A stretch of 38,992 nt of DNA from a virus. Positions 7,368-28,771 of this stretch are shown in pieces. Under the pieces are notes generated by a model. It did not search any database, was not told where the DNA came from, and worked only from the letters and a program-made list of their open reading frames with translations. Location: the IMG/VR virus record IMGVR_UViG_3300031576_000165, positions 1-38,992 of that record; one strand, written 5' to 3'. Numbering within the stretch: the first letter of the stretch is position 1; every line of letters begins with the position of its first letter. The translations under genes and the position numbers were made by a program.

Positions 7368-7670
7368 TCACTCATGTACACTTTGCACAACTTCAGAAGG
7401 CATGCCTACGATGCGCATGATGTCTTCAGTCTTCTTTCCCTGTCTTTTCAAAATCTTGATTGCTTCCACGATTCGTGGATGTTCTACACTAACACCTTGA
7501 TACTCTTGGGATTCTACCGTGCTACTCACTTGTGTGTTCCTTTGATTGTTCCCTTGTTCTGACTCGCATAGAAGACTTGCTTCCCCTTCTTCTGACCGTA
7601 CTCCTCGACCATCGCCCGTAGAATCGATTTGCCCTTCTTCGTCAACGGCATAGTATTTTCTCTGTCTCAT
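7368..7670 (-). CDS. Acidic small protein between scaffold and capsid genes
   Basis: This 100-residue protein starts at an ATG that overlaps the scaffold stop codon (ATGA), so translation is coupled. The first 60 residues are acidic and Gln/Ser-rich and look disordered. The last 40 (RIVEAIKILKRQGKKTEDIM, then VGMPSEVVQSV) look like a helix-turn-helix. Its role is unknown; an assembly factor or a regulator are both possible. Confidence 0.6.
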   Translation of the reverse strand: MRQRKYYAVDEEGQIDSTGDGRGVRSEEGEASLLCESEQGNNQRNTQVSSTVESQEYQGVSVEHPRIVEAIKILKRQGKKTEDIMRIVGMPSEVVQSVHE

Positions 7671-8503
7671 GTTAGCACAGTCTGACCCGTACCGTAGGCT
7701 TTCTTGTATAGATTATCAATGTATTCAAGCGTAGCTTTGTCACGCTGCCAATATAGTTTGTTGCGAGCGTTGTTTGGGTTACTCATGATGTCGGCAACCT
7801 CCTTACGAACTTCGTCGCCTGTCGTACCACCAGCACCTGCGCTTGGAATTAACCCAGCTAACACACTTGAGTCTTGCTCTGCAAGCGGTGCTAGGCGCAT
7901 CAAAACAGACAAAAACGTCGGATGATCACCCACGCCGGTTTGTTCAAAAAAGTTTACCTCTTCAGGAGTCTTGAAGATCGCAGAAATTAGACGTTTTGCA
8001 CCTTCACGTCGCACATCAAACTTATCGCCAAACTCTTTCTTTAGGGCGACCATGCCCGCGTCATGGGAAGTCTTCAGACTAGCATTCTGACCTTGAAGTG
8101 CTTCCACGTGAAGAGCCATCAACTCCGGGACAATTGCCTTGGGAACGCCATGCTTGTGTAACACTGTTGCATAGCGACGAGCACGATCTTCGTCCCACAT
8201 AAGACCGTCTGGTGCATCGGAAGGCTTTGTGATGCCATACTCCTCTGGAGTAGCCGGCGGCGCAGTCAGAATGCCAGCCTTGTATAGCTTTGGCAAGTGT
8301 TCTTTACGCCACGTGTCAGAGTCTCCCTTTATGGGAATGCGCGCACCCACTTCACGATGTGCGTCGTATGCGCTCCGTGCGAATGCTTGGAAGTCTTTTG
8401 CCTCCCTGACAAAGGAAGTCTCACGTAGCGGCATCTGCCGACCTTCGTGTTCCACAGTAAAAGTATCGGGAAGCTGTGCTAGAAGCGCATCATCTAATGG
8501 CAT
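7667..8503 (-). CDS. Capsid scaffolding protein
   Basis: This 278-residue, highly charged, mostly helical protein lies between the portal-proximal gene and the capsid gene. I choose the ATG at 8503 because GGAGGA sits six bases upstream; an upstream in-frame start would add 17 residues of unrelated composition. The N-terminus (LPDTFTVEHEGRQMPLRETS) and the long helical middle with MALHVEALQGQNASLK resemble scaffolds of this podovirus group. The C-terminal ~80 residues, with ARNKLYWQRDKATLEYIDNL, would be the capsid-binding helices. The call is by position and composition. Confidence 0.75.
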   Translation of the reverse strand: MPLDDALLAQLPDTFTVEHEGRQMPLRETSFVREAKDFQAFARSAYDAHREVGARIPIKGDSDTWRKEHLPKLYKAGILTAPPATPEEYGITKPSDAPDGLMWDEDRARRYATVLHKHGVPKAIVPELMALHVEALQGQNASLKTSHDAGMVALKKEFGDKFDVRREGAKRLISAIFKTPEEVNFFEQTGVGDHPTFLSVLMRLAPLAEQDSSVLAGLIPSAGAGGTTGDEVRKEVADIMSNPNNARNKLYWQRDKATLEYIDNLYKKAYGTGQTVLT

Positions 8504-23599: not shown

Positions 23600-23631
23600 G
23601 ATGTGCTAGGGTCCCTTGGCCCTAGCACATC
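23600..23631. terminator. 12-bp perfect hairpin before the ParB-methyltransferase gene
   Basis: GATGTGCTAGGG (23600-23611) pairs with CCCTAGCACATC (23620-23631) around an 8-base loop. No T-run follows, so an attenuator, RNase site or operator is as likely as a terminator. A possible upstream TTG start at 23616 would lie in its loop, which argues for the start at 23649. Confidence 0.6.
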
Positions 23632-23648
23632 AGTTAAAGGGACCAACC

Positions 23649-24962
23649 TTGGACCTACCTCTCGACGACGTAAACTTCGATGACGCTACGCGCATCCGTG
23701 AAGACCTCGACGAATCGTCACTAATTGAGTTAATGGAGTCACTAAAAAACGTAGGCCAGATCACGCCTATCGTCGTTACTAGACAAAACGGTCTTATTGC
23801 TGGTCGCAGACGTCTTGAAGCCGCACGCCGATTAGGTTGGTCGACTATTCGTGTAGAGTATTTTGAAGACCTATCGCCACTTGACAGGAAGATTGTAGAA
23901 TTTGACGAGAATGATAAACGGCGACAATTAACATGGCAGGAAAGCGCACGTGCCATAAAAGAGATACACGATCTCAAACGTGCCGCGGAGAAGAACTGGA
24001 CTGCTAGCGATACGGCGCGCGCTCTTGGATTCAGTTTAGGAAAGGTGTCAGAAGACCTTGCTCTTGGAAGTGTATTAGACAATATACGTGTAACTACGCG
24101 CCCTTCACGCCGCGGCGCACTTGAGGCATTTAAAAAAGAACGTGAACTTGTACTCGTGCGTGAGCTTGCGCGACGCCGCGCCTCTAGCATAGGTCTTGAC
24201 AGCAGTGCGGCAAAGTCAAGCAGCCTGTCAGGCGGCGTTATTTATAATGATGATTGTATAAAGATTCTTACAAACATGCTTGAAGACTCAGTTGACCTCG
24301 TCATTATTGACCCGCCGTGGGGCATTGACTTTGACAAAGCAAGTCAGTGGTCGACAGACTGGATTAGCACTTACGATGATCGAGAAGAAACTGTACGTAA
24401 AGTTCTCGTAGAAGCGTTTCCACTATTATTTAAAGTTCTTAAACCTGCGGCGCATATTTACTGTTTTTATCCCGTTCAAGAAGTTCAGTGGTGGACTGAA
24501 CGTATGACCCAAGCAGGATTTAGCATTCGTCATCGTCCATTAATATGGTTCAAACCTAATGCTAACATCACAAACGTGTACACATCATTTTTACCGCGTT
24601 ACGAGAGCATTCTATGGGGTTACAAGCCTGCAGCGGGCAACGTGCGTCGACTGTTCGCAAATCCCGTACCAGAGGCACAATCATGGCCCACCGAATCAAC
24701 AACTTGGCATGAAAATAGCAAACCTGTCGAAATGCTGAAAAGATGGATAGAAGCAAGCAGTGAAGTAAATGAAATAGTGTTGGACGCGTTCAGTGGCGGT
24801 GGCAGCACACTTGTAGCCGCCTTTAGTGCCGCACGCTACTATATAGGAGTGGAACTAGATGAAGTCAACTACATAAAGAGTGTGACAAGACTGAGACAAT
24901 TAGAAGAAGGTGCTGCGGAGCCGTCCATCGAAACCTCCGAACCCTTAAATGATGAAAAATAG
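23649..24962 (+). CDS. ParB-domain/DNA methyltransferase fusion
   Basis: This 437-residue protein starts at TTG 23649, behind AAAGGG. Residues about 1-90 form a ParB/Srx-type nuclease domain with the AGRRRLEAARRLG box (51-63). A helix-turn-helix follows (NWTASDTARALGFSLGKVSEDL, about 116-137). The C-terminal domain is an N6-adenine/N4-cytosine methyltransferase with DPPWG at 221-225 and the SAM site LDAFSGGGST near 378-387, in the beta-class order. It probably modifies phage DNA for protection from host restriction, or marks origins. The fusion is known in several phages and mobile elements. Confidence 0.9.
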   Translation: MDLPLDDVNFDDATRIREDLDESSLIELMESLKNVGQITPIVVTRQNGLIAGRRRLEAARRLGWSTIRVEYFEDLSPLDRKIVEFDENDKRRQLTWQESARAIKEIHDLKRAAEKNWTASDTARALGFSLGKVSEDLALGSVLDNIRVTTRPSRRGALEAFKKERELVLVRELARRRASSIGLDSSAAKSSSLSGGVIYNDDCIKILTNMLEDSVDLVIIDPPWGIDFDKASQWSTDWISTYDDREETVRKVLVEAFPLLFKVLKPAAHIYCFYPVQEVQWWTERMTQAGFSIRHRPLIWFKPNANITNVYTSFLPRYESILWGYKPAAGNVRRLFANPVPEAQSWPTESTTWHENSKPVEMLKRWIEASSEVNEIVLDAFSGGGSTLVAAFSAARYYIGVELDEVNYIKSVTRLRQLEEGAAEPSIETSEPLNDEK

Positions 24963-26613
24963 GATCGTCCCTGCTTCGGGTCCCCGCAACGCGAAAATTG
25001 CATTCGTCGGGATGGCTCCTGGTCGTCAAGAGCTTGCCACGGGCGTACCATTTATGGGTGCAGCCGGCGCAATTTTCAATGGCGCCTTACGACAATTAGG
25101 AAAGATAAGAAATGAAGTTTATGTCACCAATATACACAACGAATTCTTAGCGCCGGGGACCTCTTTATTCTCACTCCCACAAAGTACGCGGCAAACTAGT
25201 ATCGACAGATTTAAGCGCGAGATGGAAGTTGTCAGACCACATATCATTGTCACACTTGGAGATGAACCTTTATATTTTATCTGTAACCTTCGAGGTATAC
25301 AGAAGTGGCGCGGAAGTATTCTTCCATCGACCTTAATTCCCGGACAAAAATGCTTAGCTTCAGTTCACCCCGCCTGGATAGTTCGCGGTATGCACAAGTG
25401 GGAACCTGTTATGACACACATAGACTTCAAACGTGCGTTCGAGGAATCCGTTTCGCCAGACATTGTTCTTCCAGAACGCCGCGCAATCACTGGACCATCT
25501 ATGAATACAGTTATGGACTATATACAGGAGTGCCACCAGCATGATATCATTTCTTTTGACATTGAAGTGTATGGGTACACCGCTACTGGAACAGGCGAAA
25601 TGGCGTGTATCGGAATTGGATATTCTCCAGATGAAGCCCTTTGCATCCCACTTATCAGGTCAGGCGGAATCCCTTATTGGGGTGTGCGTGAAGAGTCAAG
25701 AATATGGCGAGCAATTGCAAACCTTCTACAGGACAGAAACATTAGAAAAGTTGGTCAGAACCTTGCTTTTGAGTGGATTTACTTCTGGCTCCATCGAATT
25801 TACCCGACAAATATGTGGATCGACACAATGCTCCTTCACCATACGTTGTACCCTGACTTTGGAGGAACAGAAGATATTTGGGGTCGTCGTCGCTCCTATG
25901 ACGAACCCGGACATTCCCTAGCTTTCATAAACTCGCAGTACACAAAAAGTCCCTACTATAAAGACGACGGGCGGCGTTGGTCGCCCGGGCTAGGCGATCA
26001 TGCCTTTTGGCGATACAATGCTATGGATGTTATGGTGACATTAGAGTGCGCCTACAAGTTGAGGGCGGAAGCCGAAGAAGAAAATCTGTGGGACTTCTAT
26101 GTCGAGTTTCAACAGCGACCGTTCATTCACACCGCACGCGCCGAATGGTTTGGCGTTGCTATAGACACAAACAAGCGCGCCCTTGTGGGCGCGGAACTGG
26201 GCGAGCAAATAAGAATGCTTCAAGATCGTATCGATCAGAAGCTAGGTTATTCATTGAATGTTAACTCGCCAAAGCAAATACACAAATTACTTTACGACGA
26301 GAAGGGATTTAAAGTAAAGAGGCACAAAGAGACCAAGAGACCTACCGCCGACAAGCACGTTCTACGAACATTTGCAGAGCAAACACAAGACGAAGTGCTA
26401 TTATGGATTCAAGAGCTAAGAAGCGTGCGCGATCTAAAAAGCGATATCGTCGATCAACCACTAGGAACGGACGAACGAATGCACACCCATTACAAACAGG
26501 GGGGAACCGACACGAACCGCTGGTCTTCGACAAAGAGTATTCTCGGGACCGGAACGAACCTGCAAAACATACCTCGCGATGGAGTCGCTCGAACTTTGTT
26601 TCTACCCAACTAG
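24949..26613 (+). CDS. Uracil-DNA glycosylase / 3'-5' exonuclease / N-terminal part of family A DNA polymerase (split gene)
   Basis: This 554-residue protein overlaps the methyltransferase by 14 bases. Residues about 1-165 are a family 4/5-type uracil-DNA glycosylase: GMAPG at 21-25, GVPFMGAAG, HPAW at 140-143. Residues about 195-375 are the proofreading exonuclease: FDIE (Asp204, Glu206), NLAFEW near 271 and YNAMD (356-360). Polymerase thumb/palm follows and ends in NRWSSTKS, NLQNIPRDG and RTLFLPN, then TAG. Family A polymerases normally continue at once into motif A, which is found at 26774. Confidence 0.9.
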   Translation: MMKNRIVPASGPRNAKIAFVGMAPGRQELATGVPFMGAAGAIFNGALRQLGKIRNEVYVTNIHNEFLAPGTSLFSLPQSTRQTSIDRFKREMEVVRPHIIVTLGDEPLYFICNLRGIQKWRGSILPSTLIPGQKCLASVHPAWIVRGMHKWEPVMTHIDFKRAFEESVSPDIVLPERRAITGPSMNTVMDYIQECHQHDIISFDIEVYGYTATGTGEMACIGIGYSPDEALCIPLIRSGGIPYWGVREESRIWRAIANLLQDRNIRKVGQNLAFEWIYFWLHRIYPTNMWIDTMLLHHTLYPDFGGTEDIWGRRRSYDEPGHSLAFINSQYTKSPYYKDDGRRWSPGLGDHAFWRYNAMDVMVTLECAYKLRAEAEEENLWDFYVEFQQRPFIHTARAEWFGVAIDTNKRALVGAELGEQIRMLQDRIDQKLGYSLNVNSPKQIHKLLYDEKGFKVKRHKETKRPTADKHVLRTFAEQTQDEVLLWIQELRSVRDLKSDIVDQPLGTDERMHTHYKQGGTDTNRWSSTKSILGTGTNLQNIPRDGVARTLFLPN

Positions 26614-26624
26614 ACGAGCAGAGC

Positions 26625-26777
26625 ATGGAGTTTCGCTGGGCTTCTGAAACGGGTGCTCACAACCTACCACACCCCGAAGAACTTGAGTATTTGGGCTGGA
26701 CTCGTATGCGCCGACATCCAATTTGGACGGAAAGTTGGCTCATGTTTCGCAACATAAGTTCAAGTTTCATACGATGA
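26625..26777 (+). CDS. 50-residue gene inserted in the split polymerase gene
   Basis: ATG at 26625 lies 11 bases after the polymerase TAG. The product (MEFRWASETGAHNLPHPEEL, then EYLGWTRMRRHPIWTESWLM) is Trp-rich, with a GW..(M/V)R.HP.W..S.LM pattern that resembles stand-alone small phage proteins. Its TGA overlaps the ATG of the polymerase C-terminal gene (ATGA). A nested stem (GAGCA/TGCTC, GTTTC/GAAAC) spans 26621-26658. No nuclease motif is visible, so it is not an obvious homing gene. Confidence 0.55.
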   Translation: MEFRWASETGAHNLPHPEELEYLGWTRMRRHPIWTESWLMFRNISSSFIR

Positions 26778-27574
26778 ATAAAATCTGGCTTTTTGGTGAC
26801 TACAGTCAAGCAGAAGTTCGCGTAAGTGCGTGGGCCGGTCCCATCCCATTAATGAAGACGTGGTTCCAAAATGGCGAAGATATTCACATAAATGTGGCAA
26901 AAATGATTGGCAAAGTCGTTGAAGAAAATAACATCCCAATGCCAAGAGGCCTATGGCACAGAAAGCCGTGGCAGGAGCTTGACTCGGGTGATCCTGAGCG
27001 TGAGGTTTCTAAAAGAACTGTTCACGCAAACACGAATGGTCAGGGTCCCGGACAGTTTGCTATCATTACTGGTCTGCCATTCAAGTACGCAAAAATTGTG
27101 CAAGACGTATATCATGCGTTGCTTCCAGAAATAAAGGGAAACTACCACAAATGGATTCGTGACCAGTTACAGGCAACTCGGCAGTTAACCAACCCACTAG
27201 GTTGGAAGCGTACGTTTTATGGCATGTACTCAAGCGCACTAGAGCGCGAAGCCTATGCGTGGTATCCACAATCTACGATTGGCCTGTTGACGATACGAAC
27301 GTTCTGTCACGTTTGTGAAGTGTTCAGAGACAGCGCTGTGAAGTTACAAACACCATCAAACATTCGCGCTATGGGGTACGACGTACAACTTCAGGTTCAC
27401 GATTCCATTGGGGTCGTCTTACCAAATGATTCAACTATAATAAGGGACGCGGCACGTGCCATATCACGTATTGCTGAATATCCACTTGTGATAAAGGACG
27501 AGACGCTAGTCGTACCAATGAACTTCAAGATTGGCCCAAGTTGGGGTGATCTACATAACTATATTCTAGAATAG
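26774..27574 (+). CDS. Family A DNA polymerase, C-terminal part (palm/fingers)
   Basis: This 266-residue protein starts at ATG 26774, overlapping the small gene. Motif A is GDYSQAEVRV (Asp9). Motif B is R76-x3-K80-x3-H84-x3-N88-G89, where the usual Phe and Tyr are His and Asn. Motif C is LQVHDS (Asp210), with Ser where Glu is common. The end matches the polymerase C-terminus. With the N-terminal part it makes a full polymerase, missing few or no residues. A longer frame upstream exists, but the coupled ATG is the more likely start. Confidence 0.9.
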   Translation: MNKIWLFGDYSQAEVRVSAWAGPIPLMKTWFQNGEDIHINVAKMIGKVVEENNIPMPRGLWHRKPWQELDSGDPEREVSKRTVHANTNGQGPGQFAIITGLPFKYAKIVQDVYHALLPEIKGNYHKWIRDQLQATRQLTNPLGWKRTFYGMYSSALEREAYAWYPQSTIGLLTIRTFCHVCEVFRDSAVKLQTPSNIRAMGYDVQLQVHDSIGVVLPNDSTIIRDAARAISRIAEYPLVIKDETLVVPMNFKIGPSWGDLHNYILE

Positions 27575-27580
27575 TCCTTC

Positions 27581-28771
27581 ATGGCTGACCGACAACTTGC
27601 AAACTGGCTGGACAGTTATCTAACGTACACAAAGAAGCAAGAAAGTCCAGAAAAGCTACACTTCTGGGTTGGCATGTCCATGCTCTCGGCCGCGCTAAAA
27701 CGCCAAGTTTGGCTTGATCGCGGATACTATAAGTTATATCCAAACATATATGTATTATTGGTAGCTGAAAGCGCACGCATTCGTAAAAGTGTAGCAATGG
27801 ACATCGGCATTGAGCTTGTACGCAAGGCAGTACCTGACCTATATTATATAAGTGGAACGATGACGCCAGAGGGACTTATCAAACATACAAACAGAATCAA
27901 AATTATATCAAATGAAACAAACAAGCCTATTATACGGTATGATAGTTATATACTGATACATGCCGACGAACTCGCAGAACTATTCGGTTATGACCGACAA
28001 CGTGCACTAAAGTTAACGATGCTACTGACAAAGATATATGGTGCGCAGAGCGAACACACGCATACACTTGCAACAGAAGGACAGATTCTATTGCGTAATT
28101 TGTATCCAGGACTGCTTGCAGCGACTGATCCACGAAATCTAAAAGTTCTGCCTGAGGAGGCAGTCGCAGGTCTTTTCGGTAGAATGATTTTTGTGACAGC
28201 ACGCGACAAACGTGAGCCAATAGCATGGCCACAACCTGATGATGAAGAGCACGCACTCTACGAACAACTAAAATATGATTTGCACAGTGTTAGCATACTT
28301 CAAGGCGAGATAGTGACTACACCAAAAGCACGTGATTTATTTAGTGAATGGTATGTCGATCTGTGTAAGGCTAAGATAGATGACCCTAGACTAGAAGCAT
28401 TTCACGAACGCTGCCACGATACCGCACTCAAGCTAGCAATGTTGCTTGCAATAGCTACTGGTGATGAACTAGTTCTGACGCACGAACATATGGCACGCGG
28501 TATTGATTACATAGAAAGACAAGCGTCAGAGTTTCACAGCGTAATAAACTGGGCTGCGTCATCTATATATGCACAAAATCGCGCCAAATTTATTGATACA
28601 TTAAGACGACAAGGCGGTGTTGGTATGCGTCGTCAGATGCTAAAGGTGCTAGCACTGCCATTAGAAGATATTCTGACACTAGAAACGTCACTAGAACAAG
28701 AAGGTACCCTAGATATACGTATAACTGGAAAGAATATTATCTATAAGTTGTCGAAGGAGGAACTAAAGTGA
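27581..28771 (+). CDS. DUF3987 primase-helicase-like ATPase
   Basis: This 396-residue protein has a degenerate Walker A, VAESARIRKSVAMD, as seen in DUF3987 proteins, where an RKS replaces GKS. An HADELAELFGYD motif serves as Walker B. GLLAATDPRNL and FGRMIFVTARD belong to the family core. It lies at the end of the replication operon and is the likely replicative helicase. No primase motif was recognised. It starts at ATG six bases after the polymerase stop. Confidence 0.8.
   Translation: MADRQLANWLDSYLTYTKKQESPEKLHFWVGMSMLSAALKRQVWLDRGYYKLYPNIYVLLVAESARIRKSVAMDIGIELVRKAVPDLYYISGTMTPEGLIKHTNRIKIISNETNKPIIRYDSYILIHADELAELFGYDRQRALKLTMLLTKIYGAQSEHTHTLATEGQILLRNLYPGLLAATDPRNLKVLPEEAVAGLFGRMIFVTARDKREPIAWPQPDDEEHALYEQLKYDLHSVSILQGEIVTTPKARDLFSEWYVDLCKAKIDDPRLEAFHERCHDTALKLAMLLAIATGDELVLTHEHMARGIDYIERQASEFHSVINWAASSIYAQNRAKFIDTLRRQGGVGMRRQMLKVLALPLEDILTLETSLEQEGTLDIRITGKNIIYKLSKEELK

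Follow-up and report, generated by a model that had tools for sequence, protein, structure and literature searches.

DNA polymerases of family A are textbook single-chain enzymes. A polymerase gene of this family that is split in two was described in 2023 in the Methylophilales phages MEP401 and MEP402 (Zobellviridae), where an intron was raised as a possibility (PMC10580990). In the present work, we have analysed a split family A polymerase gene in the window, i.e. the whole stretch of 38,992 bases that constitutes one virus record, where the N-terminal part (the N-chain) and the C-terminal part (the C-chain) are encoded in different frames. The initial annotation of the window had held that a break at this loop had not been seen; this needs correcting, since we have checked the position in MEP401/402 and have found the same turn cut, with a small open reading frame between the halves (KTLFLSRYGE-stop / MILNADAKALEW). 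The cut itself is, thus, already known. The MEP401/402 polymerase differs from that of the window in belonging to another family A lineage and in being without the uracil-DNA glycosylase (UDG) domain that the window polymerase has; in a phage search with the C-chain of the window, MEP401 was not among the matches.

Two further phage polymerases are known in two chains: RNA polymerase II of phage N4 (gp15/gp16), which is active as a purified heterodimer and has its cut in the interval from the DX2GR motif to motif A (PMC4496689), and the DNA polymerase of the T4-like Aeromonas phage 25, whose chains 43A and 43B co-purify and are active (PMC2988022). The N4 enzyme shares with the window the palm/fingers fold (T7-like) and the two chains, but it is an RNA polymerase, and the likeness of its cut is one of motif interval. 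The split gene 43 of Aeromonas phages 25 and 44RR is, like the gene of the window, a replicative phage polymerase in two genes, but it belongs to family B, is cut at another site and is associated either with a homing endonuclease or with a spacer that is not translated. Uncut counterparts also exist: the polymerases of Desulfofustis phage LS06-2018-MD01 and Microcystis phage Mel-JY34 have the same domain order (UDG, exonuclease, PolA) and similar neighbours at about 30% identity, but are single uninterrupted chains. In Caulobacter phage Kuura (L014), the UDG-exonuclease and the polymerase appear to be encoded separately, with two small genes in between, a break of the same kind at a different position.

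The polymerase of the window and the site of its cut

The features of the locus are listed in Table 1. Both halves match the DNA_pol_A profile PF00476 above the cut-off, over profile positions 8-133 (N-chain) and 154-380 (C-chain), and the N half additionally has the UDG and 3'-5' exonuclease domains in Pfam. The catalytic residues D9, K80 and D210 of the C-chain (motif A Asp, motif B Lys and motif C Asp) are invariant across 35 sequences; D9 is the residue that we take to be D705 of Klenow in the established numbering. The predicted models of the two chains (mean pLDDT 90.7 and 90.1) match Bst, Taq and Klenow, with Z scores of 20-23 for the C-chain, so that profile, catalytic residues and Pol I fold all identify a family A DNA polymerase. 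A profile search of the window has found neither a second PF00476 polymerase nor any PF00136 polymerase, the latter being the mark of family B.

Table 1. Positions of the split polymerase gene and its surroundings in the window.
Feature	Positions	Strand	Details
Upstream gene	23616..24962	+	ParB_N + N6_N4 DNA methylase; same gene order in L005
N-chain, family A DNA polymerase	24949..26613	+	554 aa; ends ARTLFLPN-TAG
N-chain domains			UDG-like, residues 10-150; 3'-5' exonuclease, residues 188-374; then thumb and first part of palm
Gap in the beta-turn ahead of motif A	26614..26773	+	160 nt
Hairpin	26621..26658	+	z -0.16 against shuffled sequence, within chance
50-codon frame in the gap	26625..26777	+	TGA overlaps the C-chain ATG (ATGA, 26774-26777)
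C-chain	26774..27574	+	266 aa; carries motif A, the fingers (motif B) and motif C
Catalytic Asp codon, motif A	26798..26800	+	C-chain residue 9; invariant in 35 sequences
Motif C His-Asp	27398..27403	+	C-chain residues 209-210
Downstream gene	27581..28771	+	kept in L005, L009 and L010

In alignments of the predicted models with the solved structures, the final residue of the N-chain corresponds to Klenow 696 (Bst 643), and the first residue of the C-chain to Klenow 697 (Bst 645, Taq 602). Hence, little or no polymerase sequence is missing, and the cut falls in the surface turn that links the final N-chain strand to the motif A strand, with which the C-chain opens (ATG at 26774, MNKIWLFGDYSQAE); in most one-chain relatives, this beta-turn reads [PA]-D-x-G. 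The initial annotation had placed the break just before motif A, with little or nothing lost, and both points are borne out by the reading frames, the profile matches and the structural alignment: the break in the window polymerase is real.

The position of the chain ends bears directly on the idea that a split intein joins the two chains by protein trans-splicing, as has been reported for the fractured PolB gene of the Pseudomonas jumbo phage MIJ3. An intein-like insertion does occur in the same polymerase family, in locus L146, but it is an in-frame insertion at motif B, within a C-chain already separated from its N-chain, while the chains of the window end on adjacent Klenow positions and neither carries intein sequence; trans-splicing is, thus, already contradicted and retains hardly any probability.

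The insertion of L146 (2786-4675; QAGKK / CLVAGTEVL ... SISGN / SNHSLNY) gives a weak Hint_2 match, and its C-chain is separated at the usual turn. In a one-chain relative, L031, about 290 residues are inserted in frame close to motif B (7419-8293), which is intein-like by position; Pfam finds only the polymerase, UDG and exonuclease domains in L031. Motif B itself (26999-27045, C-chain residues 76-91) reads HANTNG in the window and in L010, and H[GA]NNYD in L005 and L009; at the position of the fingers Tyr (Y766 in E. coli), the window and L010 have Asn, which could alter the enzyme. The gene downstream of the C-chain occupies the place of a gene called DUF3987/primase in distant phages. A search of phage records with the window at the DNA level has given no match.

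Recurrence of the cut and contents of the gap

L005 and L006 were found by a scan for close relatives with the N-chain of the window. Two contigs at 74% (N-chain) and 63% (C-chain) identity are cut at the same place, their gap holding a 46-codon membrane-like frame that is unrelated to the frame of the window, and relatives at about 50-55% identity are also broken there. The gap of L009 has 77 nt with a 20-codon frame, that of L010 has 617 nt with three small frames, and in L018, a DUF4406-like protein and a dCTP deaminase are encoded within a gap of 959 nt. Throughout the clade of the window, the N-chains end in ARxLF and two to three further residues, and the starting Met of the C-chains lies about 8 residues ahead of the catalytic Asp. 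A scan with the aligned N-chains has yielded 80 loci, each of which was then profile-searched frame by frame; many are split at the same site, and about 50 have the polymerase in one frame. A second scan, started from a second split clade, has enlarged the split set, and the two scans together give about 45 IMG/VR contigs with the same break.

The gaps of these loci span 42 to about 2,000 nt and are unrelated in sequence, and some hold complete genes; tiny open reading frames, MazG, dCTP deaminase, ThyX, a subtilase, and GH25 and M15 endolysins have been found there, as well as a bare spacer in L090, where 42 nt without a gene separate the halves and a Shine-Dalgarno (SD)-like motif precedes the C-chain start. 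Among the gap genes scanned with Pfam, there is no homing endonuclease that might have caused the break, a result with which an old, since lost one is compatible. We know of no comparable gene slot in N4 RNA polymerase II.

In L119, L122, L123, L128, L132 and L134, the two polymerase halves flank endolysin genes (GH25, M15) or ThyX. In MW202796 (L096), the C-chain is present with no N-chain within 2.5 kb upstream, and the chains may be coded apart.

Since the window is a single metagenomic record, the break could in principle come from an assembly error or from a decayed gene; this is already contradicted by the about 45 other contigs and the sequenced isolates with the same break, and runs against the purifying selection on the chains, the invariant catalytic residues and the lack of a backup family A or B polymerase in the window, and we give it almost no credence.

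The 50-codon frame is joined to the C-chain by the ATGA that the initial annotation had described, and the overlap is confirmed in the sequence. An open run of at least 45 codons is expected by chance in such a stretch in about 21% of cases, so open length alone is weak evidence; the codon usage, in turn, fits that of the window genes, the score being 0.289 against 0.207 +/- 0.081 for the window genes and -0.089 +/- 0.098 for out-of-frame pieces, none of which reaches it. Judged by this gene-like codon usage, the frame is probably a small gene, although neither relatives in phages nor a Pfam match have been found for its 50 residues. It is probably a cargo gene, which would also bring ribosomes to the start of the C-chain.

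The small gap protein might instead be a third subunit that bridges or regulates both chains. Apart from the gene-like codon usage in the window, this would fit a part of the second split clade, where the gap genes (about 70 aa) look alike by eye, and the gap genes of L027 and L041, whose dN/dS of 0.13 points to purifying selection; the gap proteins differ, however, from one relative to the next (a membrane-like protein of 46 aa in L005, one of 50 aa in the window, one of 20 aa in L009, and three frames in L010), and L090 and the Alcaligenes phage vB_Af_QDWS535 have no gap protein at all, so that a third subunit appears very improbable.

Evidence for two separately translated chains

The gap could also be removed before the final protein is made, by ribosome bypass, frameshifting or an intron, yielding one chain. 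An intron was suggested by the authors of the MEP401 study, and T4 gene 60 resembles the window in that a replication gene is interrupted by tens of nucleotides. The hairpin that the initial annotation had noted in the gap is present as described, but its stability does not exceed that of shuffled sequence (Table 1), and neither does the folding of the entire gap interval (z +0.77). No Rfam family, and with it no group I or II ribozyme, matches the gap, in agreement with the earlier view that an intron is unlikely, and no promoter or terminator site has been predicted within it; among the relatives found, none carries the 50 residues as an in-frame insertion. Unlike T4 gene 60, the window has a gap that is not conserved, structure at the level of chance and a second part with a start codon of its own.

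The lengths of the chain ends provide a further comparison. Between the P/A of the turn and the catalytic Asp, there are 9 residues in 32 of 33 one-chain enzymes, whereas the tail of the N-chain and the head of the C-chain add up to 6-22 residues (sd 3.3) in 34 split enzymes, for some of which the C-chain start was chosen among two or three candidates; the N tails alone have 1 to 8 residues in the same set. Such variation is expected of free ends and argues against rejoining by bypass, intron or intein. In the clade of the window the sum is 9-10, i.e. the one-chain length, which by itself would suit removal of the gap, and the free-end argument comes, therefore, mainly from the other clades. 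Bypass, which the initial annotation had considered, is not supported, given this inconstant joined length, the chance-level hairpin and the unrelated gaps with complete genes; as the C-chain also opens with an in-register start codon, often behind an SD-like motif, we regard any removal of the gap as very improbable.

In 16 of 18 loci, the C-chain start and the stop codon of a gap frame overlap, and an SD-like motif lies ahead of 17 of 23 C-chain starts, against 17% of random window positions. The window has no such motif ahead of its C-chain, so initiation there would rest on coupling. For chains with unsaturated synonymous sites, dN/dS is 0.06-0.13, which indicates purifying selection on both chains where it is measurable; between the C-chains of the window and L005, the synonymous sites are saturated (pS 0.79, pN 0.26), and no dN/dS is derived.

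The repeated break in many independent assemblies, the conserved start and stop positions and the variable free-end lengths that only split enzymes have strongly support the suggestion of the initial annotation that the polymerase works as two chains, and we consider it very probable that the two chains of this functional-looking polymerase are translated separately and then assemble into one enzyme. The two polypeptides would be encoded by adjacent genes within one operon, with the N-chain supplying the UDG-like domain, the exonuclease, the thumb and the first palm strand, and the C-chain supplying motifs A, B and C. Ribosomes would complete the N-chain and then translate the small gap gene, and the C-chain would be initiated at the ATG that overlaps the stop of this gene, by a predicted translational coupling. 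The chains are then predicted to fold together noncovalently, with the final N-chain strand against the C-chain strand that bears motif A, and to form one active polymerase; by analogy, 43A/43B and N4 RNA polymerase II make the assembly of the present chains plausible. As the cut lies in a turn that tolerates free ends, the gap would have become a place for interchangeable small phage genes.

Origins and meaning of the cut

We have built trees of 55 and 65 polymerases, the second without the columns at the cut, and have left L135 out of the counts, since its N-chain end is unclear. In both trees, no fewer than three changes of the split label are required, all on branches with good support, and there are three split groups: the clade of the window (5 rows, support 100/99; the enzyme closest to it, L020, has no split), L044, and a clade of 28 that is nested among unsplit enzymes. 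By count, three gains fit as well as one gain plus two losses; the position of the second clade among several unsplit enzymes favours a gain there.

Two constrained topologies were also compared: a topology that unites every split enzyme in a single clade is rejected (AU p 1e-100), and the joining of L044 to the clade of the window is disfavoured (AU p 0.0175), L044 being on a long branch that leaves its separate origin uncertain.

Outside this polymerase family, the same turn is cut in MEP401/402, in MW202697 and in vB_Af_QDWS535, a distant relative of the MEP401/402 polymerase that has no gap at all; in a metagenomic relative that is cut at this turn, the gene in the gap carries the annotation R67 dihydrofolate reductase. 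The related polymerase of Pelagibacter phage HTVC033P is whole. What is new is the recurrence of the cut at one turn in several lineages, together with the interchangeable gene slot; our literature search, mostly outside subscription journals, has found no published report of the clade of the window.

It is possible, but in our view doubtful, that the repeated cutting at this turn is an adaptation, by which the output of the C-chain would be uncoupled from that of the N-chain and tied to translation of the gap gene, the slot thereby controlling the amount of polymerase.

In an enzyme family known for its single chain, the palm has been split in phages of several lineages at one shared beta-turn, which lies a few residues away from the catalytic Asp, and genes keep being swapped through the gap. 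The split enzymes mark a loop that tolerates a break and offer a natural two-part polymerase for studies of assembly, and for the published MEP401 case, two chains are an alternative to the intron. For annotators and for polymerase-based virus surveys, the finding is a warning that half-length PolA genes can be genuine genes and not fragments.
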